NCBI GenBank assembly: GCA_016793095.1
Contig: JAEUJQ010000045.1
Span: forward strand, 124,001 to 188,000
DNA: 64,000 bases
Origin: Myxococcaceae bacterium
Lineage (GTDB): Bacteria; Myxococcota; Myxococcia; Myxococcales; Myxococcaceae
Direction of reading: 5' to 3'
The stretch's first letter is position 1; each line of letters begins with the position of its first letter. Shown here piece after piece: positions 5,601-35,426 of this stretch. The position numbers were made by a program, and so were the translations under genes. Under the pieces are notes generated by a model, which saw nothing but the letters and a program-made list of their open reading frames with translations, was not told the DNA's origin and did no database searches.

Positions 5601-7466
5601 ATGTCGCTCGTCGGGCGCCAGATCGGCCGCTACCGGATCCTGGAGCAACTCGGCCAGGGCGGGATGAGCGTCGTCTACAAGGGCCTCGACACGGCGCTCG
5701 ATCGCGAAGTGGCCGTGAAGGTGCTCCACCCGCACCTGTCCACCAAGCCCGAGAGTCGCAAGCGGCTCGACCGCGAAGCACGCGCCGTGGCGCGCCTGCA
5801 CCACCCGAACATCCTCGAGGTGTACGACTTCTCGGGCGCGGACTCGGCCGAGGCCTTCATCGTCACCGAGTACATCCGTGGGAAGACGCTGCGCGAGTTC
5901 ATCTCGGCCGAGCCGCTCTCGCCCCCCGAGATCGCGGCGATGGTGATGCACGAGATCGCCGGCGCGCTCGCCCACGCCCACGATCAATCGGTGCTGCATC
6001 GGGATCTCAAGCCCGAGAACGTGATGGTGCGCGACGACGGCGTCATCAAGCTGACCGACTTCGGCATCGCCAAGATCCTCGACCGCGACGAGAAGATGAC
6101 GATGACGGGCGCGCTGGTGGGCAGCCCCGCGCACATGGCCCCCGAGATCATCGAGGGCGAGGAGTCGGGCGCCGAGGCCGACGTCTTCTCGCTGGGCACG
6201 ATGCTGTACCTCTTCGTGACGGGGAAGCTGCCCTTCACGGCGCCCAACACGACCGCAACGCTCAAGCGGATCCTCGACTGCGTGTACGAAGATCCGCGGC
6301 AGTCGTCGCCAACGTGCTCTGACGAGCTGACGGAGATCATCGGCAGGTGCCTCCAGCGGGCTCCGGGGGAGCGGTACGCGACCGCCGGCAAGCTGCGCGA
6401 CGCGCTCGCGGGCTACCTCAGCGAGCTGGGCCTCACGAGGCCGCACGAAGAGCTGCCGAAGTTCTTCCTCGATCCGAAGGGCTACCGGAAGGACGTGGAG
6501 CAACGCATCATCGGCACGCTGCTCGAGCGGGCGCAGAAGCTCATCGCCGAGAAGCGCTCCGCCCGCGCGCTCTCGTGTCTCAACCAGGTGCTCGCGCACG
6601 ATCCCACCAACGAGCGCGCGACGCTGCTGCTCGACGCGATGAAGGCGAAGAAGCTGCGCGAGCAGCGGACGAAGCGCCTCCTCCGGCTCACCGCCGCCGG
6701 CGGGACGGCGTTCATCATCGGCATGGCCGCGCTGAAGGGCGCCCAGATCGCCACCCGGGCCCCCGAGCCGCCGATCGTCCTGCCCTTCGGCCCGCACGAC
6801 GTGGTGCTCACCAGCGTTCGCTGGAGCCCCCTGCGCGTGGAGCCGCTCGTCGAGCCCGACGCGGGGGTGGCCGAGCTCATCGACGCAGGTACAGCGGGAT
6901 CCGCCGACGCCGGTCCCGCGCTCGCCGTGGTGAAGCCCAGGAACGGCACGCCCGTCATCGTGAAGCCGCCCGAGAAGCGGCCCGATCAGCCCCAGGTGAC
7001 GCCCCCGGCCGCGGCGATCGAGGTGCAGGTGATGGTGCGGCCCTTCGGCTTCCTCGCGATCGACGGAGAGCCCCGGTCGGCCGACGCGCTCGCGATGCAC
7101 CGGCTGAAGCTGAGCCCGGGAGACCACCGCTTCACCGTCACCTGTGACGACTGCGAGGCCAGCGGGATCACGCGCACCGTCTCCATCGCCCCGGGCCAGG
7201 AGGCGATCAGCCTCGTGGCGCCGCTCAAACCGTCCCTGCTCTCGTTCGACGGCTTCCCGTCCGAGGCGATCGTCCAGGTGGGCGCGGAGACCCGCACCGT
7301 CGCCGAATCGATGAGCTCGCCCTTCCGCATCACCACGCCGCCCGAGGGCCGCCGGGCCATGCTTCACGACGTGAAGTACTCGGTCACGCTCCAGGGCGCG
7401 ACGCTGGCGCAGGACGTCGCGCGCGTGCAGCCGGGCAAGCTGCTGGTCGTGAGGCGAGCGCCGTGA
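5601..7466 (+). CDS. Transmembrane Ser/Thr protein kinase with extracytoplasmic PEGA-like tail
   Basis: 621 residues. The kinase domain (about 10-275) has every key element: glycine loop GQGGMSVV, Lys40 in VAVKVL, HRDLKPEN at 133-140, DFG at 153-155 and an APE-type segment. A TPR-like helical stretch (about 300-350) precedes a single membrane helix near 360-380. The exported tail is Pro-rich and then beta-rich; FGFLAIDGEP and LKLSPGDHRFTVTC resemble PEGA repeats found behind many bacterial kinases. It overlaps the next gene by 4 bp (GTGA), and a sigma54 activator follows, so the three probably form one signalling unit. The ATG has a GGGAGGTTGAGCAGGG leader with acceptable ribosome-site character. 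Confidence 0.95.
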   Translation: MSLVGRQIGRYRILEQLGQGGMSVVYKGLDTALDREVAVKVLHPHLSTKPESRKRLDREARAVARLHHPNILEVYDFSGADSAEAFIVTEYIRGKTLREFISAEPLSPPEIAAMVMHEIAGALAHAHDQSVLHRDLKPENVMVRDDGVIKLTDFGIAKILDRDEKMTMTGALVGSPAHMAPEIIEGEESGAEADVFSLGTMLYLFVTGKLPFTAPNTTATLKRILDCVYEDPRQSSPTCSDELTEIIGRCLQRAPGERYATAGKLRDALAGYLSELGLTRPHEELPKFFLDPKGYRKDVEQRIIGTLLERAQKLIAEKRSARALSCLNQVLAHDPTNERATLLLDAMKAKKLREQRTKRLLRLTAAGGTAFIIGMAALKGAQIATRAPEPPIVLPFGPHDVVLTSVRWSPLRVEPLVEPDAGVAELIDAGTAGSADAGPALAVVKPRNGTPVIVKPPEKRPDQPQVTPPAAAIEVQVMVRPFGFLAIDGEPRSADALAMHRLKLSPGDHRFTVTCDDCEASGITRTVSIAPGQEAISLVAPLKPSLLSFDGFPSEAIVQVGAETRTVAESMSSPFRITTPPEGRRAMLHDVKYSVTLQGATLAQDVARVQPGKLLVVRRAP

Positions 7467-8380
7467 GGCTCCTCCGGTTGGCCCTCGCGCTGCTGTTGGT
7501 GGGGCTCGGCGGGCGCGCGTCCGCGCAGGGAGCTCCGGAGCGCGAGCTCGAGCTCGTCAAGGCGCTCTTCGACGCGGGCAAGTACGCCGAGACCGTCGGC
7601 CTCGTCCGCAAGGCGACCTCGACGACGAACTTCACCGACGCGCAGCGCCTCGAGCTGCTCAAGATGGCAGGCCTCGCGTCCTTCAACCTCGGCGACAGCG
7701 CCGCCGCGAAGGAGAGCTTCCTGGCGCTGCTCCGGCTCAACCCGGACTACGTGCTCGACCCCTTCATCGCCCCGCCGCCAGCCATCCGGCTCTTCGAGCA
7801 GGTGCGAAAGGACAACGCCGACGAGCTGGCCCTCGTGCGGCAGGTCCTGCAGGTCCGCGCAGAGCAGGAGCGCAAGGCCGCCGAGGAGCGCAAGAAGCAG
7901 GAAGACGAGCGCGCCACGCGCCGCCTCGTCACCATCGAACGTCGCCCGCTCTGGATGAACTTCCTGCCGTTCGGCGCCGGGCAGTTCCTGCAGGACCGGA
8001 CCGCCTGGGGCGTCACCTTCGCGGTCGCCGAAGGCGTCCTGGCCATCACCAGCATCGTGGCCTACTGGGCCATCGAGAGCCTGAAGACCACGTTCAAGGA
8101 GCGGATCACCGACACGCTCACCCCGACCGGTGTCTTCGAGCGCGAGGTGCGCGGCATTCCGCCGTCGCTGGCCGGGGCGCGCGACACCTGGCGCGTCGTG
8201 AAGTGGACCACCGGCGGCGCCTTCTACCTCGCCTGGGCGGTCGGCGTCGTCGACGCGCTCGTGCACCACACGGGCGATCAGGTGAAAGAGACCCGCGACC
8301 AGCCCAGACCGCCCTCGGCCCGCCTGAACCTCACCCCCATCCCCGGTGGCGTCTTCGCCGGAATCAGCGTCACCTTCTGA
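7463..8380 (+). CDS. TPR-like inner-membrane protein coupled to the Ser/Thr kinase
   Basis: 305 residues from a GTG overlapping the kinase stop codon. It has a signal peptide (ends RASAQG), then a helical TPR-like domain (about 25-125) with KALFDAGKYAETVGLVRKA and LASFNLGDSAAAKESFLALL, then a charged coiled coil (QVRAEQERKAAEERKKQEDERATRR). Hydrophobic segments follow near 165-205 and 255-275. The domain order matches a common myxobacterial pattern in which a periplasmic TPR domain is tethered to the membrane, but I cannot name a family. Translational coupling with the kinase argues for a shared complex. Confidence 0.8.
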   Translation: MRLLRLALALLLVGLGGRASAQGAPERELELVKALFDAGKYAETVGLVRKATSTTNFTDAQRLELLKMAGLASFNLGDSAAAKESFLALLRLNPDYVLDPFIAPPPAIRLFEQVRKDNADELALVRQVLQVRAEQERKAAEERKKQEDERATRRLVTIERRPLWMNFLPFGAGQFLQDRTAWGVTFAVAEGVLAITSIVAYWAIESLKTTFKERITDTLTPTGVFEREVRGIPPSLAGARDTWRVVKWTTGGAFYLAWAVGVVDALVHHTGDQVKETRDQPRPPSARLNLTPIPGGVFAGISVTF

Positions 8381-8406
8381 AGCACCGGCACACGAGAAAG
8401 ACCGCC

Positions 8407-10290
<1,884 letters not shown>

Positions 10291-10304
10291 CAGGCTCGAA
10301 CCGC

Positions 10305-10934
10305 ATGAAGTTCCTCGAGCGACGCGACGCGCAGATCATGGCAACGATGTTGCTATGGCTGAGTGTTGCCGGAGGCCAGATGGCGTGCGTGCTGCCCCAG
10401 GAGGACCAGATCATCACCGAGCTGCCCGGGGCGGCGAACCGGCCTCCGCGCATTCTGCCGGGCATCGCCGAGCCCCCGACGCGCGAGTACCGCGCGCAGC
10501 TCGGTGCCAACTGCAACCGGCCCGCGTTCTCGGTGCAGGTCGATGATCCCAACCTGACGGACACGATCCGGGCGAACTGGTTCATCGACCCGAACGAGCG
10601 CTACGTGCAGGATGGCGCGGGCAAGCCGCTGATCCGCGGGAACCCCGGGACACCGATTGGCGCAGGCTCGAGCGTGAGGCTGGTGCAGGCGCCGCCGACG
10701 TTCAACGCCGCCCTGCAGCTCTTCAACGACGGGCGGAAACACCGCGTCGAGGTGGTCGTGACGGACGGCGAGTTCATCGAGAGCGAGCGGCCCGATCCGC
10801 AAGGCGGCACGCAGGCGTTTCTCGACATCGTCCGCCCCGCCGTGCGCCTGCCGAGCGGCGAGGTGATCCCCGTCGCGGCCTATCGCGACGAGTACGTCTG
10901 GCTCGTGGAGGTCGACACGCTGCCATGTCCCTGA
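10305..10934 (+). CDS. Putative lipoprotein of unknown function
   Basis: 209 residues. A short hydrophobic stretch, MLLWLSVAGGQMAC, ends at a Cys that could be lipidated, although the -3 position is Gln and the lipobox is poor. The mature part is beta-rich, with a WFIDPNERYV segment and a strand pair RKHRVEVVVTDGEF near the middle. Two cysteines (CNRP and the C-terminal LPCP) could form a disulfide. The next gene starts 10 bp before this stop codon, so the pair is translationally coupled. No family is recognised; outer-membrane or periplasmic location is inferred. Confidence 0.65.
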   Translation: MKFLERRDAQIMATMLLWLSVAGGQMACVLPQEDQIITELPGAANRPPRILPGIAEPPTREYRAQLGANCNRPAFSVQVDDPNLTDTIRANWFIDPNERYVQDGAGKPLIRGNPGTPIGAGSSVRLVQAPPTFNAALQLFNDGRKHRVEVVVTDGEFIESERPDPQGGTQAFLDIVRPAVRLPSGEVIPVAAYRDEYVWLVEVDTLPCP

Positions 10935-12610
10935 TCCGCTCCCCCCGCCTGCTTCTCGCGCTGGCCCTCGCCGGCTGCGCGGGCGCACCGGCCAGGCCGC
11001 CTCCGTGCCTCACGGATCTCGACTGCGCAGAGGGGCTCGTCTGCTTCCCCGATGGCTGCGGAGATCCGACGCGGGGGCTCGCCGTCGAGGTCCTCGGTGG
11101 CTCGAACGTGGGGCTCTTCCCGCAGGACTTCGAGGTGCCACAGCTCGGCACCACGCAGGACTTCGAGATCAAGGGGCCGCTGTCGATCGTCGGCTCCTTC
11201 CAGCGCGAGCGCACGGCCTCCGTCGATCCGACCGAGCGGGACATCTACACCGACGAGGTGCTCGTCCGGGCGACCGGTGAGAGCCAGGTGCTGCCTGGCA
11301 TCGCGCGCAGCTACCAGCAGCGCTTCGCCATGACGGACCGCGGGACCTTCTCGATGAACGTGGGCCAGGGCAAGTACACCGTGAGCGCGTTCCCCACCAA
11401 CCTCGAGGTGCCCCCTCAGACGTTCCCCAACGTCGTGGTGAGCCCCGATGCAGGGGCGACCGTCAACTTCGCGTTCGCCTCGGTCGCCGGAGCCGTGACG
11501 CTGCCCGGCCGGTTGCTCAAGAAGAGAATCACCACCCCCACCCCCTCCGAGCTCTACATCACGCAGGCCGCGATGGATCTGCAGGCCGTCGACCCAGCGA
11601 CCGGTGAGGCCCTCTCGCAGCGCATCGAGACGTCGACTGGTCGGCCTGGCTCACGAGGAGACTTCATCCTCGTCGTCTCTCCGAAGGCGAAGACGCTCCC
11701 GCGCATCGAGCTGGTCGCCACGCCCCGCGAGGTGGGCTCTGGCGTTCCGAGCCGCCGCTTCTCGCTCAGCCCTCCTTTTCCTCCGGCCCTCACCCTCGAG
11801 CTCGGAGACTTCGGCGAGCCGGTGAAGGACGTGCCGGGTCAGGTGCTCGGCTCCGATGGCCAGCCCCTCGACGGCGCGACCGTCGTCATCGAGGGCACCG
11901 TTGGCGGCGGAGGCACGTTCCGCTCGAAGCTCGCGACCACCGACGCGACCGGCGCCTTCAAGGTCGATCTGCTCCCGCCCGACGACGCCTTCACCCTCAC
12001 GGTCTTCCCGAGGGCGGGGCTCCGCGCAGGGCTCACGAAGGTGAACGTGAAGCTGAAGAACTCGCCCGGGCAGCCGCCGGCCCTCGATCCACCCAGCGCG
12101 AAGTGCGTCGATCGCATTCCAGTGAGCGGTCGGGTGCTGCTGCCCGATGGCAGCCCCGCGGCCATGCTCGCTGTCCGCGCGGTCGAGACGAGCACCGGTG
12201 AGCGCCCGCTCCCGCTCGATGACGTGAACCTGCTCACCGACGTCGACGGCAAGTACTCCCTCTTCCTCGACCCCGGGAGCTGGCGCATCGAGTTCACGCC
12301 CCTCGGCGAGCTGCCCGCCACCAGCCGGCTCGTCACGGTGTCCGCCGCGGCGGCGACCATGGGCGGCATGCTGACCGGTCAGGTCTTCGCCCCGATCACC
12401 CTGCCCCGCGGCCGTCGGCTCACGGGCGTGGTGACCTCGAACCTGTCTGGGCGCGGTTCGGTGCCGCTGCCGAACGCGCAGGTGCGCTTCTTCCGCGTCA
12501 CCACCATCGAGGGCAAGCCGGCGTCGGTGCTGCTTGGGGCGGGCGTGACGAACGGCGTCGGCTCGTACACCGTCATCCTGCCCACTCGCGAGTCCGCCCG
12601 ACCGCAGTGA
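10925..12610 (+). CDS. Lipoprotein with carboxypeptidase-regulatory-like repeats
   Basis: 561 residues. The lipobox LALAGC is classical, followed by a Cys-rich knot (CLTDLDCAEGLVCFPDGC) of the type found in myxobacterial secreted proteins. The rest is beta-sheet, with at least three carboxypeptidase-regulatory-like or Cna-B-type units marked by VPGQVLGSDGQPLDGATVVIEG, IPVSGRVLLPDGSPAA and RLTGVVTSN, each followed by a TDxTGxFKVDLL or TDVDGKYSLFL turn. It is probably displayed on the outer membrane. It overlaps the preceding gene by 10 bp, which suggests joint function at the surface. Substrate unknown. Confidence 0.8.
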   Translation: MSLIRSPRLLLALALAGCAGAPARPPPCLTDLDCAEGLVCFPDGCGDPTRGLAVEVLGGSNVGLFPQDFEVPQLGTTQDFEIKGPLSIVGSFQRERTASVDPTERDIYTDEVLVRATGESQVLPGIARSYQQRFAMTDRGTFSMNVGQGKYTVSAFPTNLEVPPQTFPNVVVSPDAGATVNFAFASVAGAVTLPGRLLKKRITTPTPSELYITQAAMDLQAVDPATGEALSQRIETSTGRPGSRGDFILVVSPKAKTLPRIELVATPREVGSGVPSRRFSLSPPFPPALTLELGDFGEPVKDVPGQVLGSDGQPLDGATVVIEGTVGGGGTFRSKLATTDATGAFKVDLLPPDDAFTLTVFPRAGLRAGLTKVNVKLKNSPGQPPALDPPSAKCVDRIPVSGRVLLPDGSPAAMLAVRAVETSTGERPLPLDDVNLLTDVDGKYSLFLDPGSWRIEFTPLGELPATSRLVTVSAAAATMGGMLTGQVFAPITLPRGRRLTGVVTSNLSGRGSVPLPNAQVRFFRVTTIEGKPASVLLGAGVTNGVGSYTVILPTRESARPQ

Positions 12611-12701: not shown

Positions 12702-13184
12702 TCACGAGGCGGGCAAGGCGGCCAGGGCCGCGCGAAAGGCGTCGAGGGCGGGGCCGAGCTGCCCCGCTACCTGGGTCGCCTGCACGGTCGCGAGATCCAT
12801 CACCTGGTGCAGCCGCGTGAAGGCGATCTTGAGCTCGCTGCGGAGCGGCTCGTCGAGAGCACACTCCGCCTCGAGCGCCCGCATGCGCACCATCCACCCA
12901 TTGCGGAACGTCATCCACCGCTGATCGGCCTCCGCGGCCTTCCCGATCGAGCTCAGGTTGCGCCGCTCGGCCTCGAGCTCCTCGAACAACGCGGTGAGCC
13001 GACTGGCGCAGACGGCGGGCGTTTGAACGGGGACAGCCTCAGGGCGACCGGGCGACATCTCGAACACCGACTTCGTGACGCTGAAGATCACGAGGCTCGA
13101 GAACCCGACCGAGACGACGAGGTAGAGCGCCCACGCCGCGCCGCGGAAGGGTCTCAGCCTCGGATCAGGAGCGGGCGCCGTCAT
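12702..13184 (-). CDS. Single-pass membrane protein of unknown function, last gene of envelope operon
   Basis: 160 residues from the ATG at 13184, preceded by GGCGGTGAGGTG. One membrane helix (about residues 15-35, ALYLVVSVGFSSLVIF) is followed by an extracytoplasmic helical domain. The domain has three spaced cysteines (VCASRL, ECALDE) and ends in a long amphipathic Ala-rich helix. It starts 4 bp after the stop of the TPR protein upstream, so it is clearly in the same operon. No family is recognised. The frame extends further upstream, but that portion lies inside the neighbouring gene and was rejected. Confidence 0.7.
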   Translation of the reverse strand: MTAPAPDPRLRPFRGAAWALYLVVSVGFSSLVIFSVTKSVFEMSPGRPEAVPVQTPAVCASRLTALFEELEAERRNLSSIGKAAEADQRWMTFRNGWMVRMRALEAECALDEPLRSELKIAFTRLHQVMDLATVQATQVAGQLGPALDAFRAALAALPAS

Positions 13185-13188
13185 CACC

Positions 13189-14148
13189 TCACCGCCCCTG
13201 AGCAGGTGGTGTCGGGGGCGCCGCCGGGGCAGGCGCGGCAGGTGCGGTCGCTGGCGGGGCAGCGGCCGGGGTGGCCATGGACCGCTGCAGCCGGCCGATG
13301 AACTGGTTGCGGAACTCGCTCGCGGGGTACGTCTGCCACCCCTCCTTCGCGTACTCGATCGCCTTGTCCTTGTTGCCCACCACGTCATGCGACTGCACCA
13401 GCATGACGAGGGCGAAGTCGCGGGTGCGGGCCTTCTTGTCCCCCTCGACGAAGCGGGTGAGCGGCTTGATCGCCTCTTCGTATTTCCTCGACTGGAAGAG
13501 GGAGTTCCCGAGGAAGAACGAGGCGTCGAGCGCGTCTTCTTCGACCGGGTTCATCGCGAGGAAGCGGGTGAGCTGCTCGACCGCCTCGGGCCAGTCGCCG
13601 CGTCGGAACGCCGTCTTTCCGCGCTCGAGCACCGACGCGCCGACCTCCTTCCGCAGCAGCGTGGCGCGATCCTGCAGGGCCTGGCGGGTGAGCGGCGTGA
13701 GCTTCGAGGTGTCGAGCTTCGCGAGGGCCTCGACGCCCTTGAGCCGCTCCTCGCCCGCGAGCGTCGTCATCTGCCGGTAGACGTCGGCCGCCGCGCGCTC
13801 CGCCTTCTCGACCGCCTGCGCTTCGCTCTTCTGCTTGTCGAGCTGCGCGGTGAGCTCAGCGACCTGCTGCTCGAGCCGCTGCCGCTGCTCGTTCGCCGAG
13901 GACGCGCGCGCGCCAGAGACCGCGATCGCCCCGCCGACGCACACCGCGAGGAAGCCGAGGTACGCCGCGCCGGTGGCGAACCAGGTGCGTCGCTGGAAGT
14001 CGGCCTGCTGCGAGCTGACGACCTTGAGCTCGGCATGCAGGGACTTGAGCGCGTTGTCCGTCTTGATCGTCATGTTGCGCGCTTCGACGACCTCGCGGCG
14101 GATCTCCTCGAGCGGCTTGCTGGACTCTGAGCTTGGTTCCTGCGGCAT
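13189..14148 (-). CDS. Membrane-anchored coiled-coil/TPR protein
   Basis: 319 residues from the ATG at 14148. A cytoplasmic N-terminus with a short coiled coil (EEIRREVVEARNMTIKTD) leads to one membrane helix (about 55-77). A periplasmic coiled coil (RQRLEQQVAELTAQLDKQKSEAQAVEKAE) follows, then TPR-like repeats, for example RGDWPEAVEQLTRFLAMNP and SRKYEEAIKPLTRFVEGD, and an Ala/Pro-rich tail. The layout recalls YbgF/CpoB-type periplasmic scaffolds. It lies 43 bp downstream of an outer-membrane barrel gene and immediately upstream of another membrane protein, so the operon probably builds an envelope-spanning assembly. Confidence 0.82.
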   Translation of the reverse strand: MPQEPSSESSKPLEEIRREVVEARNMTIKTDNALKSLHAELKVVSSQQADFQRRTWFATGAAYLGFLAVCVGGAIAVSGARASSANEQRQRLEQQVAELTAQLDKQKSEAQAVEKAERAAADVYRQMTTLAGEERLKGVEALAKLDTSKLTPLTRQALQDRATLLRKEVGASVLERGKTAFRRGDWPEAVEQLTRFLAMNPVEEDALDASFFLGNSLFQSRKYEEAIKPLTRFVEGDKKARTRDFALVMLVQSHDVVGNKDKAIEYAKEGWQTYPASEFRNQFIGRLQRSMATPAAAPPATAPAAPAPAAPPTPPAQGR

Positions 14149-14191
14149 GGCGCTTCCCTGTACCACGTTGGGCGCGGAGCGCGCCGGGACT

Positions 14192-14869
14192 TCAGAAGCT
14201 CGACGGGCGACCGAAGCCCGGAACGTCGAGATCGCGCTTCGGGGTGGGCGGGAAGAAGATCGAGACGCCCGCCGAGGCGAACAGCCCACCCACGTTGCGG
14301 CCGGCGATGTCGGCCACGTACGCCCGCCCGATCAGCCAGCGCACGTCGACGAACAAGCCGAAGCGATCCGTCAGCCGCCAGGCGGCGCCTCCGTTCACCG
14401 AGAACCCCTGGAGGATGCGCTCGGGACCTACGGCGCTGGGCGAGGTGACGATCACCAGCACCGGGCCAGTCTGTGCCCCGACGTACGGGACGAGGCCCTT
14501 GACGGGGAAGTCATAGCGGGTGAACCGGACCCCGACGAGCGCGCCGTACGAGACCGACGAGAACGGGAGCCAGCCTTCGAGCTGAAACGACTCGAAGCCA
14601 GCGAAGAGATCGATCGCCAGCTCGAGCCACTCGAAGGCGCCGTACCCGAAGCTGGCTGCGCCCTGAAACCCGAGCGGGGCCGTGACGAACTCCTGGGCCT
14701 GCGTGTTCGGGCGGCCCGCCTCGCGCGCGCGCGCGTTGAAGTGGTCGTTCGGGGTCCACCGCAGCCCGCCGCCGAAGCTCATGCGTCCCACGCCGTCCGT
14801 CGGGGTGTCGGCGAGGGCGGTCTGCGCGCTCATGGCGATCGCGAGGACGCCCAGCGTCACTGCGCGCAT
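14192..14869 (-). CDS. Outer-membrane beta-barrel protein
   Basis: 225 residues with a signal peptide (MRAVTLGVLAIAMSAQTALA) and then alternating aromatic beta strands (LGFQGAASFGYGAFEWLELAIDLFAG, VSYGALVGVRFTRYDF, FGLFVDVRWLIGR, FASAGVSIFFPP). That pattern fits the small myxobacterial outer-membrane barrel families, though the C-terminus is not the classical terminal Phe of BAM substrates because a short tail ending PSSF follows. The ATG at 14869 has GGAAGGTG upstream, and its A is shared with the stop codon of the preceding gene (TGATG). It may form the outer-membrane end of the assembly encoded by this operon. Confidence 0.8.
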   Translation of the reverse strand: MRAVTLGVLAIAMSAQTALADTPTDGVGRMSFGGGLRWTPNDHFNARAREAGRPNTQAQEFVTAPLGFQGAASFGYGAFEWLELAIDLFAGFESFQLEGWLPFSSVSYGALVGVRFTRYDFPVKGLVPYVGAQTGPVLVIVTSPSAVGPERILQGFSVNGGAAWRLTDRFGLFVDVRWLIGRAYVADIAGRNVGGLFASAGVSIFFPPTPKRDLDVPGFGRPSSF

Positions 14870-15249
14870 CACCACACCTTCCATCCCTCGGGGCGGTGGC
14901 CCACGCGGGGAGGTACAGGAGGGACTGGCGTCACGGGGCGGCCCGACGCGCCGACCGCGTCTTCGCGTGGCACGACGGTGAAGGGGCGTTGCCCGCCGGC
15001 GCGCGGCTCGGGAGCCGGTGGGACCTCCTTCACGCCGGCCCGCTCCTCGAGCAGCTTCACGTAGAGCTTGAGCTCGGCGAGGGCCTGCTCCTTCTCCATC
15101 AGCCTGCGGTACAGCTCCACGCGCCGCTCCTTCTCGTCCATCAGCTCGCCGTGGAGTTGCATGAGCGACGCCATCGCCTTCTCGGCGTATGAGGCAGGGA
15201 CTGGGAGCGGTGACGGGGCGGCGAGCATGAGCGGGTCGAGCGGGTTCAT
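14869..15249 (-). CDS. Short coiled-coil protein, envelope operon
   Basis: 126 residues from the ATG at 15249. After a Pro-rich start (MNPLDPLMLAAPSPLPVPAS) comes a continuous helical stretch (about 22-72) with heptad-like charge spacing (LHGELMDEKERRVELYRRLMEKEQALAELKLYVKLLEE). It ends in a Pro/Gly-rich tail closing with GWKVW. No signal peptide. Both ends overlap neighbours: ATGA with the 51-residue gene upstream and TGATG with the barrel gene downstream. This tight coupling suggests equimolar production. No family is recognised. Confidence 0.72.
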   Translation of the reverse strand: MNPLDPLMLAAPSPLPVPASYAEKAMASLMQLHGELMDEKERRVELYRRLMEKEQALAELKLYVKLLEERAGVKEVPPAPEPRAGGQRPFTVVPREDAVGASGRPVTPVPPVPPRVGHRPEGWKVW

Positions 15250-15401
15250 GAGTGTCGGGACTCCCAGGCGATCTCGAGGAAGGTGCGGCGCCTTCGCGAG
15301 AGGACGGCGCCGGCGCACCGGAGCAGGCACCGCCAGCCAAACTCCCGCCAGATGAGCCGGAAGTTCGTCGCCACCTCTCTGCCGGTGATGACTCCGTTCA
15401 T
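15246..15401 (-). CDS. 51-residue basic protein, first gene of envelope operon
   Basis: A small gene easy to miss by length filters. The ATG at 15401 follows a strong GAGGAAGGAG ribosome site, and the TGA stop overlaps the next start as ATGA. The product begins MNGVITGREVATNFRLIW and continues REFGWRCLLRCAGAVLSRRR, then TFLEIAWES. It has two cysteines, several tryptophans and a cluster of four arginines. There is no signal peptide or long membrane helix. The coding case rests on the ribosome site, the coupled overlap and the non-random residue content. Function unknown; it could be a small regulator or adaptor for the proteins downstream. Confidence 0.65.
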   Translation of the reverse strand: MNGVITGREVATNFRLIWREFGWRCLLRCAGAVLSRRRRTFLEIAWESRHS

Positions 15402-15743
15402 CTGCGCGCTCCTTCCTCGCTACAGGTGTGCAGCGCACCGTAGCAGTCGCGATCGAGCCGGCAATTTTTCGACCTGCGAGGACTCCGCGCTGGCGAAGCG
15501 GCTCGCGGGCGGCCTCATGCCCGTCGGGCCAGGGCGAGCGCGCCAGGACTCCGCGCTGGCGAAGCGGCTCGCGGCCTCATGCCCGTCGGGCCAGGGCGAG
15601 CGCGCCAGGACTCCGCGCTGGCGAAGCGGCTCGCGGGCGGCCTCATGCCCGTCGGGCCAGGGCGAGCGCGCCAGGACTCCGCGCTGGCGAAGCGGCTCGC
15701 GGGCGGCCTCATGCCCGTCGGGGCAGGGCGAGCGCGCCAGGAC
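15402..15743. other. Intergenic region of 342 bp between mutL and the envelope operon
   Basis: The left third (15402-15480) is a conventional leader for the leftward operon and contains the only AT-rich patch nearby (aatttttcg, about 15463-15471). The rest is the tandem repeat array described separately. I see no tRNA, no conserved reading frame across the repeats and no convincing U-tract terminator for mutL, which reads leftward into this region. Confidence 0.7.
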
Positions 15744-15749
15744 TCAGCG
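15481..15749. repeat. Minisatellite: four tandem ~66-bp units abutting the mutL 3' end
   Basis: Units run 15481-15546 (66 bp), 15547-15608 (62 bp, lacking 4 bp after GCGGCTCGC), 15609-15674 (66 bp) and 15675-15740 (66 bp, one visible C-to-G change near its middle). A partial fifth copy begins at 15741 (GACTCAGCG) and contains the mutL stop codon. Each unit starts GACTCCGCGCTGGCGAAGCG and ends GGGCGAGCGCGCCAG. Inverted repeats are present: CGCCAG/CTGGCG across each unit junction and GCCCGTCGGGC inside each unit. The 62-bp unit breaks any reading frame through the array, so it is not coding. Confidence 0.95.
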
Positions 15750-17474
15750 TTCGAGTTCGAGCAGCGGCAGGTCGCGGACGATCACCCGGCTCCCCCGGGC
15801 GTGGATCTGCGGCTCCACGTCGTCGAGCGCGGCCAGCCGCGCGCGAACCTGCTCGTGGGACACGACCGCCGACGCCACCACTCCGGCGCGCCGAGCCAGG
15901 ACGGCGATCCGCGCCGAGGCGTCCGCGGCGCTGGCCACCTCGAACAACCAGCCCGCGGCATCGACCCCCTCGAGCTCCGCCGGCGCTTTCAGCACCTGCA
16001 CCGATCCCTGTCCGAAGTCCTCGACCTCGACCCCCACCTCCGCGAGCCCCGCTGCGGCCTCGAGCACCCGCTGCCGCTCCGTGGGGCCCAGCTCGAGCCG
16101 CGCCGAGAAGAGCGTGCGGGGCGCAGTCGCCAGAGTCCCCGCCTGGAAGCGGGACGCCAGCGCCGACCAGACGATCCGCTCCTCGACCGCGCGGGGATCG
16201 AGGATGACGAGCGAACCCGCGCTCGACTCCATCAGCCAGAAGCGCTTCGCCAGCGTCCCGAGGAACGAGAGGCCCGAGAAGTAGCGGCGTGGGGGCGCCG
16301 AGTCGAGGGTCACCCGGGCGGTACCGAAGGACGACCTGGAGAGCGGCTGCTCGAGCGAGAGCGGCGTCACCGGCTCGAGGAAGGCGGGGGCCGGCTGCGC
16401 GCGCGCGAGGAAGCGCTCGATGGCCTGGGCGTACTGGGCTTGCACCTCCTTCGGCTCCGCGCTGTCGTCGCCCTGCCTCCACGGCGCCGCCCTCAGCGCC
16501 CTCGAGATCGCAGCGCCCACCGCCTCTTGAACGAAGCGTGGGTCTGCGAAGCGCACCTCGAGCTTCTGCGGGTGCACGTTGACGTCGACGGCGCGCGGGT
16601 CCAGCTCGATGAAGACGACGGCGACGGGCTGGCGCCCGGGGGGCAGCGAGTCCTGGTACGCGCGCTGAACCGCGGCGGTCAGGCCCCGGTCGCGCACGTA
16701 GCGGTGGTTCACGAAGGTCATCAGCCCGCGCGCGTTGGCGAGGGTGAACTCGGGGGCCGCGACGAAGCCGGTGACGGTGAGGCCGAGCCGGCGCTCGTCG
16801 ATCGCGAGCAGGTGCGGGGCGGCCTCTGACCCCAGCACCGCGGCGGCGCGCTGGAGGGGCTCGGTCGCGCTCGGCGGGCTCGACCACACCTCCTTCCCCT
16901 CATGCTCGAGCGTGAAGCCCACCTCGGGGTGCGCCAGGGCCAGCCTCGTCACTGCGTCTTCGCAGTGCAGGAGCTCGGTTGCCTCGCGCTTGAGGAACTT
17001 CCGGCGCGCAGGCACGTTGAAGAAGAGATCGTCGACCTCGATGCGGGTGCCACCGACGGCCGCCGCGGCGCCCACCACCGGCTCGCCCCCACCTTCGACT
17101 GAGAGCTGCGTGCCCTCGAGCGCGCCGGGCTCGCTGGTCACGAGGCTGAAGCGGGACACCGACGCGATCGCCGGCAACGCCTCGCCGCGAAACCCCTTGG
17201 TGAGGATGTGGAAGAGCCCTTCCTTGTCCACGAGCTTGCTGGTCGCGTGCCGCTCGAGGCTCGTGAGCGCGTCTTCGCGCGACATGCCGTGCCCGTCGTC
17301 GATCACCGTGATGCTCGCGCACCCGCCGGCTCGCAGCCTCACCGTCACCCGTGTGGCTCCCGCGTCCACCGAGTTCTCGGCCAGCTCCTTCACCACGGAC
17401 GCAGGGCGCTCCACCACCTCGCCAGCGGCGATCTGGTTCACCAGGTCTGGGGGCAGTCGGCGGACCCTGGGCAT
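15744..17474 (-). CDS. mutL: DNA mismatch repair protein MutL with degenerate endonuclease motif
   Basis: 576 residues from the ATG at 17474, matching the usual MutL start (MPRVRRLPPDLVNQIAAGEV). The GHKL ATPase motifs are intact: ELAENSVDAGA, DDGHGM, HATSKL and GFRGEALPAI, and the transducer domain has NVHPQKLEVRF. The C-terminal dimerisation domain carries DPRAVEERIVWSAL where endonuclease-type MutL proteins have DQHA-x2-E-x4-E. The Gln, His and last Glu are replaced, so it probably does not nick DNA itself. The stop codon lies at the edge of a tandem repeat array. It is divergent from the MoxR gene, with 77 bp between starts. Confidence 0.96.
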   Translation of the reverse strand: MPRVRRLPPDLVNQIAAGEVVERPASVVKELAENSVDAGATRVTVRLRAGGCASITVIDDGHGMSREDALTSLERHATSKLVDKEGLFHILTKGFRGEALPAIASVSRFSLVTSEPGALEGTQLSVEGGGEPVVGAAAAVGGTRIEVDDLFFNVPARRKFLKREATELLHCEDAVTRLALAHPEVGFTLEHEGKEVWSSPPSATEPLQRAAAVLGSEAAPHLLAIDERRLGLTVTGFVAAPEFTLANARGLMTFVNHRYVRDRGLTAAVQRAYQDSLPPGRQPVAVVFIELDPRAVDVNVHPQKLEVRFADPRFVQEAVGAAISRALRAAPWRQGDDSAEPKEVQAQYAQAIERFLARAQPAPAFLEPVTPLSLEQPLSRSSFGTARVTLDSAPPRRYFSGLSFLGTLAKRFWLMESSAGSLVILDPRAVEERIVWSALASRFQAGTLATAPRTLFSARLELGPTERQRVLEAAAGLAEVGVEVEDFGQGSVQVLKAPAELEGVDAAGWLFEVASAADASARIAVLARRAGVVASAVVSHEQVRARLAALDDVEPQIHARGSRVIVRDLPLLELER

Positions 17475-17513
17475 CGGGAGTCGATTTCCGAGCGACCACA
17501 CCACCGCGTTGGC

Positions 17514-32630: not shown

Positions 32631-33230
32631 TCAGTCGTCCTTCAGCTCGACGTTCCAATACGACGCGTCGGCCACGTTGAGGAAGGGCAACCATTCACGG
32701 TACGTCTGGGGCTTCGCCGCGTTGCGGAAGAGGGGGGTCCACTTCGGGCGCACCGGCTCTCGCAGCAGCGAAATCCCGGCCTGCGCGGGCGTTCGGCCGC
32801 CCTTCCTCAGGTTGCACGTGATGCACGAGCAGACGACGTTCTCCCAGCAGGTACGCCCCCCCTGCGAGCGCGGCACGACGTGATCCAGGTTGAGGTCGGC
32901 GCGCCGGAGCTGTCGGCCGCAGTACTGGCAGGTGTCGTTGTCGCGCGCGTAGATGTTGATGCGGCTGAAGCGCACCCTCGTTCGCGGCAGCTTCTCGAAC
33001 GCCGTCAGCACCAGCACCCGCGGCACCCGGATCGTGCGGTTCACCGAGTGGATCCGATCGTGATCGGCCGCTGCGGCCAGCTGCTGCCAATCGGCGAAGT
33101 CGTACTGGCGGTACTGCTCATCGAGCGCCCGCGCGACGCCCTGGTACAAGAGCGAGATGGCGCGCTTCACGCTCGTCACGTGAATCGGCTGGAAGTTGCG
33201 GTTCAGGACGAGGACTGCGGTGTTCAGCAT
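32631..33230 (-). CDS. HNH endonuclease (paralogue 1, beside selA)
   Basis: 199 residues from the ATG at 33230. The N-terminal half, VLVLNRNFQPIHVTSVKRAISLL, is the fold typical of the 'VLNRxYQP' HNH family. The nuclease core has CQYCG, the HNH-type LNLDHVVPRSQGG, then TCWENVV and a second zinc pair CITC ahead of NLRKGGRTP. Intact metal and catalytic residues suggest an active nuclease of unknown target. It overlaps selA by 7 bp at its start, and a paralogue lies on the other side of selA. Such genes are common as single chromosomal copies with unknown role. Confidence 0.9.
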   Translation of the reverse strand: MLNTAVLVLNRNFQPIHVTSVKRAISLLYQGVARALDEQYRQYDFADWQQLAAAADHDRIHSVNRTIRVPRVLVLTAFEKLPRTRVRFSRINIYARDNDTCQYCGRQLRRADLNLDHVVPRSQGGRTCWENVVCSCITCNLRKGGRTPAQAGISLLREPVRPKWTPLFRNAAKPQTYREWLPFLNVADASYWNVELKDD

Positions 33231-34880: not shown

Positions 34881-35426
34881 TCAATCTTCCTCGAGGCTGC
34901 CGTGCCAGTAGGTCAGGTCGCGCAGCCACGTCTGCCACGAGGCGGGCATGCCCTTGTGGAAGGCGAAGGTGAGACGGAGCGTGTCCGGCAGCTTCGCCGG
35001 CTTCACCGGCCGCACCTTCAGCGGCATGCCTGCCTGCTCCGGCGTCCTGCCACCCTTCTTCTGGTTGCAGGGCACGCAGGCGATCACGATGTTCTCCCAG
35101 TTCGTCGCGCCGCCGCGCGAGCGGGGCGTCACGTGATCGTAGGTCGCGTCGGCCCGGAGGACCGGCCGCTGGCAGTACTGGCAACGGCCGTGGTCACGCG
35201 CGTACACGTTCTCGCGGCTGAACCGGATGACCGGCTTGCGGCGCGCGAGCAGGCGCAGGAAGCGAACCACGGACGGGACCTTGAACTCGAAGCTCACGCT
35301 GCGAATCGTCTGGTCCTCGTACGCCTCGACGAGCTCGACCTTGCCGAGGAACAGCAGCGTGATGGCGCGCTGCCAGGGAATGCGGGCGACCGGCTGGTAC
35401 GAGCGGTTCAGAACGAGAGTCTCCAT
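34881..35426 (-). CDS. HNH endonuclease (paralogue 2)
   Basis: 181 residues from the ATG at 35426, which follows an excellent AAAGGAGG ribosome site. The layout is the same as the gene at 32631: TLVLNRSYQPVARIPWQRAITLL at the start, zinc pair CQYCQ, HNH core TYDHVTPRSRGGATNWENIV, zinc pair CVPC and NQKKGGRTPEQAG. Catalytic His/Asn residues are retained. The two are clearly paralogous, sharing motifs all along, but differ in the first half, which may set specificity. Target unknown. Confidence 0.91.
   Translation of the reverse strand: METLVLNRSYQPVARIPWQRAITLLFLGKVELVEAYEDQTIRSVSFEFKVPSVVRFLRLLARRKPVIRFSRENVYARDHGRCQYCQRPVLRADATYDHVTPRSRGGATNWENIVIACVPCNQKKGGRTPEQAGMPLKVRPVKPAKLPDTLRLTFAFHKGMPASWQTWLRDLTYWHGSLEED

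Follow-up and report, generated by a model that had tools for sequence, protein, structure and literature searches.

Do the five closely packed genes that follow mutL in a Myxococcaceae bacterium form one envelope machine, or do only some of them belong together? The stretch analysed, hereafter the window, comprises 64,000 nucleotides (assembly GCA_016793095.1, contig JAEUJQ010000045.1, positions 124,001 to 188,000). A preliminary description, which ended at window position 12702, read these genes, here called A to E, as a five-gene envelope operon. All five lie where it placed them (Table 1), and it was exact on the overlaps of ATGA (15246-15249) and TGATG (14867-14871) as well as on the 43 bp that separate C from D and the 4 bp between D and E; moreover, each gene was detected in seven out of seven genomes of the genus and is thus not a chance reading frame. 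While the adjacency, overlaps and gaps stand, the operon is not a fixed unit: in relatives any of A, B and C may be missing whereas D and E persist, and the conserved unit is the D-E pair, not the five-gene operon. A convergent set (5601-12610) encoding a Ser/Thr kinase (STK), a TPR protein, a sigma54 activator and lipoproteins is often part of the same block in relatives.

A conserved gene pair in a variable locus

The usual order in Myxococcaceae is MutL-(A)-(B)-C-D-E, convergent with CPreg-lipo-activator-TPR-STK, where CPreg and lipo encode two probable lipoproteins. Fifty loci of this type were fetched by D together with 6 kb on either side, flanks that stop short of the kinase and in some cases end at a contig edge; MutL and E were each present in 47 of them, C in 44, CPreg in 39 and the activator in 33. 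When all 65 loci fetched by D are considered, E was also present in 55, on the same strand as D in 50 of these and within 250 bp of it in 49 of those 50.

At the level of genomes, D was detected (E-value ≤ 0.001) in 57 of the 59 family genomes, a count that includes one spurious match (4e-4, in G019), and E in 55, all of which have D. The four family genomes without E (G002, G003, G012 and G019) may lack the locus only in their assemblies, because MutL matches were partial in G002 and G003 and undetected in G019, while in G012 the contig breaks off within the region of the D gene. We discounted the joint loss of D, E and the activator in G019, since MutL was undetected there too. All three reduced genomes (2.1-2.7 Mb) retain MutL-D-E, and A, B and C were undetected in them. 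Across the phylum (195 genomes of 90 genera, taken as Myxococcota from record titles), E occurs in 132 genomes and 40 genera; all matches listed fall within the order, throughout which E is one family (99.95%).

Outside the family, E was matched in 40 genomes, and 20 loci around E, from 20 of these genomes, were searched by tblastn at 60 bits or more. The activator and the TPR protein were each found in 17 of the 20 loci, the kinase in 16 and MutL in 13. A fair control is given by five window genes that flank the block at no more than about 9 kb from E, as more distant genes are not expected in such stretches: MoxR, DUF58, transglutaminase and gene 3977 were found in none of the 20 loci, and gene 4963 in three. 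Of the 13 loci with MutL, none held the next window gene past it, and of the 16 with the kinase three held the next one past the kinase. With the window's own C, E, lipo and CPreg, tblastn scored in only 0 or 1 of the 20 loci because these genes diverge fast; profiles detect C, D and E more widely. Four of the 20 loci (L327, L329, L337, L338) repeat records among L250-L264, such that the two sets are not additive. In family f2 (L335-L338, of which L337 and L338 repeat L255 and L256), E lies beside CPreg and shares its strand, with D on the other.

One Myxococcus-type A-C-D-E locus (L237, BNCN01000004.1) comes from a record titled Comamonas sp. KCTC 72670, probably a mislabelled myxobacterium.

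Table 1. Genes of the locus and its neighbourhood (window coordinates; aa, amino acids; pI, isoelectric point; HTH, helix-turn-helix).
Feature	Position	Strand	Description
gene A	15246-15401	-	51 aa, basic (pI 11.6); new small-protein family with CxxxC
gene B	14869-15249	-	126 aa, probably cytosolic coiled coil; conserved helix, invariant C-terminal tryptophan
gene C	14192-14869	-	225 aa, likely outer-membrane beta-barrel; signal-like N-terminus (by eye)
gene D	13189-14148	-	319 aa; N-terminal motif RNxxIK(T/S)DN, hydrophobic segment ~59-77, coiled coil (by eye), TPR
gene E	12702-13184	-	160 aa; hydrophobic segment ~19-37, three-helix domain, invariant C59 and C108
mutL	15744-17504	-	conserved upstream neighbour, same strand
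CPreg	10925-12610	+	probable lipoprotein, carboxypeptidase-regulatory-like domains, convergent with E; lipobox LAGC by eye
lipo	10305-10934	+	small probable lipoprotein (by eye)
sigma54 activator	8407-10290	+	FHA-like N-terminus, GAF, sigma54 AAA, Fis-type HTH
weak TPR protein	7463-8380	+	hydrophobic N-terminus and one inner hydrophobic segment
Ser/Thr kinase (STK)	5601-7466	+	one hydrophobic segment ~360-378; C-terminal part would be periplasmic

The D and E proteins

Judged from its sequence features, D is a membrane-anchored TPR protein. All but one of 66 D matches carry its N-terminal motif, and 63 of these 65 have T or S at the variable position, although the patterns used for retrieval favoured this motif; the exception is the second fragment of a split gene. 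The rear part is composed of TPR repeats (TPR models down to 3.6e-10). Upstream of D, a sigma54-type site at two or fewer mismatches was found in only 3 of 64 cases (control 0.6%), and these three are one near-identical site in three Myxococcus records.

E has a single hydrophobic segment and is predicted to cross the membrane once. Its structural model is confident (predicted local distance difference test, pLDDT, 90.9) and comprises helices at residues 8-43, 56-77, 83-107 and 113-155. The two cysteines occur in every row of three overlapping alignments (52/52, 15/15 and 34/34), and we infer a disulfide between them. Structural comparisons with this model yielded nothing at E-value ≤ 0.001 in Foldseek, and in VIA-align only generic three-helix bundles and designed proteins (Z up to 10.8, where a threshold of 13 is advised for helical models). 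The family model of the type II secretion protein GspM matched 9 of 34 E members weakly (best 0.0063), and did not match the window's own E. A short single-pass protein that follows D in L261-L263 was not counted as E (hhalign probability 12%, E-value 0.0025). E is duplicated in one genome (G058, in the L187-L193 set).

Genes A, B and C

The preliminary description had also proposed that the operon begins with an overlooked 51-residue gene, and this gene is real. Among the seven genus sequences, the ratio of nonsynonymous to synonymous differences (pN/pS) is 0.24 in the frame of A, as against 0.45-2.14 in the other five frames, which indicates purifying selection, and differences at codon positions 1, 2 and 3 number 158, 90 and 327. 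The family is also widespread: it occurs in 52 of the 59 family genomes, counting stand-alone copies, and in 125 of the 195 genomes and 42 of the 90 genera of the phylum (E-value ≤ 0.01), where a single genome can have as many as seven matches. Forty-three sequences give the consensus MRGVITGRDVxxNLGLIxREFGxxCxxRCLxAxxxxRRTTFLEVA with eight invariant columns, the two cysteines being present in 41 and 42 of them.

By its sequence, A is a new small-protein family, with no Pfam or NCBIfam model convincingly matched. The window's A met no model in either collection at E-value ≤ 1, and ten members scanned one by one gave no match; two candidates, Pfam DUF3667 (1 of 43 members, 0.0012) and NCBIfam TOMM_kin_cyc (2 of 43, best 0.0098), were judged to be chance matches. 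Searches of A against the PDB, and of one stand-alone relative against plasmids, gave no match, and the predicted model of A is of low confidence (pLDDT 65.8) and was not interpreted.

At the D locus itself A was detected in 30 of the 50 Myxococcaceae-type loci; it was undetected in the other 20, at least one of which (L238) ends at a contig edge, and the nine Corallococcus loci have no A there. Extra copies often stand alone, away from the D locus. We found no constant partner among the neighbours of 53 stand-alone loci; kinase-like neighbours at six of them (L177, L374, L376, L381, L382, L384) were informally judged to be near what kinase-rich genomes would give. In four loci (L324, L326, L330, L342) of family f3, which we take to be Anaeromyxobacteraceae, a copy of A lies directly upstream of E.

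B, whose conserved helix is of the coiled-coil type, was detected in 19 of the 59 family genomes and at four loci outside the family. C is likely an outer-membrane beta-barrel, as weak profile matches indicate. Its profile partially matches AlkL (6qam; E-value 4.1e-8, positions 60-205), and Pfam OMP_b-brl matches 21 of 26 members of its family at E-value ≤ 1 (best 1.6e-7), while the window's own C, taken alone, had no profile match. In these respects it may resemble the small outer-membrane barrels of the AlkL/OmpW type, from which it differs in that no specific Pfam OmpW model is among the C-family matches listed. Given these matches and the TPR repeats of D, the earlier statement that none of the five proteins has an obvious named family needs correction. 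The proposed span from cytoplasm to outer membrane is retained as a prediction, in which A and B would be cytoplasmic, D and E would sit in the inner membrane and C in the outer membrane.

Neighbouring genes

The STK has a Pkinase domain, its hydrophobic segment and a large C-terminal part. At the N-terminus of the activator, the FHA model scores 18.5 bits, below its cut-off of 20.7, and the related Yop-YscD_cpl model passes its own cut-off of 33.2 with 40 bits. The joint encoding of a kinase and an FHA-like/GAF/sigma54 activator resembles known myxobacterial signalling by Ser/Thr kinases and FHA-type sigma54 activators, but what sets the arrangement here apart is its linkage to the D-E pair and to two probable lipoproteins. 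No Pfam family matched lipo at E-value ≤ 0.01. CPreg and lipo diverge fast; in the 17 loci with an activator, among L324-L343, its identity is still 54-61%.

A 66-bp tandem repeat (4.2 copies, 95% matches, window 15479-15749) lies between mutL and gene A and enters the last codons of mutL.

What might the D-E pair do?

That D and E so frequently lie beside kinase and gene-switch genes suggests, but does not prove, an envelope-monitoring system. We tentatively favour, at somewhat less than an even chance, an envelope complex with an inner-membrane D-E core that in most lineages is coupled to the convergent kinase/activator set, a coupling that we infer. In such a complex D would have a conserved helix on the cytosolic side and extend a coiled-coil/TPR scaffold into the periplasm, where E would contribute a disulfide-locked three-helix domain; C would be an outer-membrane barrel, possibly reached by the D scaffold, and A and B would be optional cytosolic accessories. 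Information on the state of the envelope would pass from the two probable lipoproteins, the TPR protein and D-E to the membrane Ser/Thr kinase, with the FHA-GAF-sigma54 activator reading the phosphorylation and turning on a regulon. If true, this would identify inputs to one myxobacterial kinase and one FHA activator. A bolder version is unlikely in our judgement: an order-wide envelope-sensing island, leading from D-E, the barrel and two lipoproteins through the kinase to the activator, with A founding a multi-copy family of ~50-residue proteins that tune membrane/kinase complexes.

A number of observations weigh against such coupling. No E was detected in 10 of the 65 D loci, some of which end at a contig edge, and in several genomes, mostly Archangium, E lies 12-42 kb from D next to unmatched genes of ~170-180 residues (L187-L193). 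An orthologue of the activator (69-70% identity) lies away from the D locus in ten genomes, six of Archangium (g7) and four of genus g11, being 1.39-1.65 Mb from D in six and on another contig in four. The three reduced genomes gave no activator match at E-value ≤ 1e-150 and have neither kinase nor activator at the locus (the kinase was sought at the locus only); as they keep D-E, the pair must have a role without the activator. Conversely, all nine loci of family f3 hold E and the signalling set with no detected D or C (one, L334, ends at a contig edge), and at L328 and L339 E is accompanied by neither D nor the activator. MutL linkage is about as tight as that of the kinase set. Finally, a sigma54-type site at two or fewer mismatches was found upstream of A in 0 of 31 cases, a weak test given a control rate of 0.8%. 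It follows that some lineages use D-E without the kinase set, and others use E without D. What is partly supported, then, is an uncharacterised core envelope pair with optional accessories and a frequent, not universal, kinase/sigma54 link.

Much of this would also fit a D-E(-C) scaffold for constitutive envelope maintenance or division, CpoB-like in its working if not in membership, to which the kinase/activator set is merely an old neighbour; we consider this a substantial possibility, if on balance a doubtful one. The best NCBIfam match of D is indeed the YbgF/CpoB model (1.7e-12), and D shares with this Tol-Pal-associated TPR protein the order of coiled coil then TPR. However, its 48 bits fall below the equivalog cut-off of 90.1, some 58 residues precede its hydrophobic segment, and its immediate gene neighbours are mutL, C and E. 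The reduced genomes, which retain D-E without the signalling set at the locus, and the ten genomes with a displaced activator agree with a constitutive scaffold, whereas the recurrence of kinase, TPR protein and activator in 16-17 of the 20 distant loci, as opposed to 0 to 3 of 20 for the next genes out, and the co-directionality of E with CPreg in family f2 do not.

An order-wide synteny block beside mutL, in which unrelated genes are kept together with no joint machine, would account for the presence of mutL, a gene with no known envelope role, in 13 of the 20 loci, for the independent gain and loss of A, B and C, and for the Archangium genomes in which D and E are far apart. We nevertheless think it improbable, because D and E lie within 250 bp of each other in nearly all same-strand loci holding both, loci which were fetched by D. 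It is very improbable indeed that the genes belong to a gliding-motility or spore-coat (Glt/Nfs) machine, even though those systems combine a comparable mix of TPR, outer-membrane barrel and membrane proteins in myxobacteria (available parts of PMC3169522 and PMC2875238). In those parts the Glt genes of Myxococcus xanthus are MXAN_4862-4870 and MXAN_2538-2541 (PMC3169522) and nfsB-H are MXAN_3372-3378 (PMC2875238), apart from mutL, the neighbour here, which is MXAN_4026 in the accessible text of PMC5285347. The locus is thus not at G1, G2 or M1, and gene position lends no support to a Glt/Agl link; the distinction is drawn by position and gene lengths (same parts of PMC3169522 and PMC5285347), and taken together the Glt gene lengths disagree with those found here, though GltK (170 aa) is as long as E in Myxococcus. 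In keeping with the preliminary description, no described system was matched.

The locus in Myxococcus xanthus

Our literature searches, which did not cover supplements, found no publication on these genes, and the accessible portions of PMC12773805 and PMC6791715 hold nothing on them. Their position can nonetheless be estimated. MXAN_4029 has 292 residues (excerpt of PMC4877007) and is given as a GGDEF-FHA gene (excerpt of PMC8354745), in agreement with a 292-residue gene that lies past MutL in locus L155 with two genes between. Taken with mutL as MXAN_4026, this fit implies that the M. xanthus operon should lie just below MXAN_4026. A predicted lipopeptide cluster, MXAN_3986-MXAN_4020 in the table seen of PMC4902038, may touch the block with its edge. 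The locus offers a defined, deletable core gene set in model myxobacteria, an uncharacterised membrane pair linked to a kinase/sigma54 switch, and brings to light the widespread small-protein family of A.

Elsewhere in the window, two genes ~2 kb apart (32631-33230 and 34881-35426) have similar N-termini. We take this pair to resemble HNH-type proteins.

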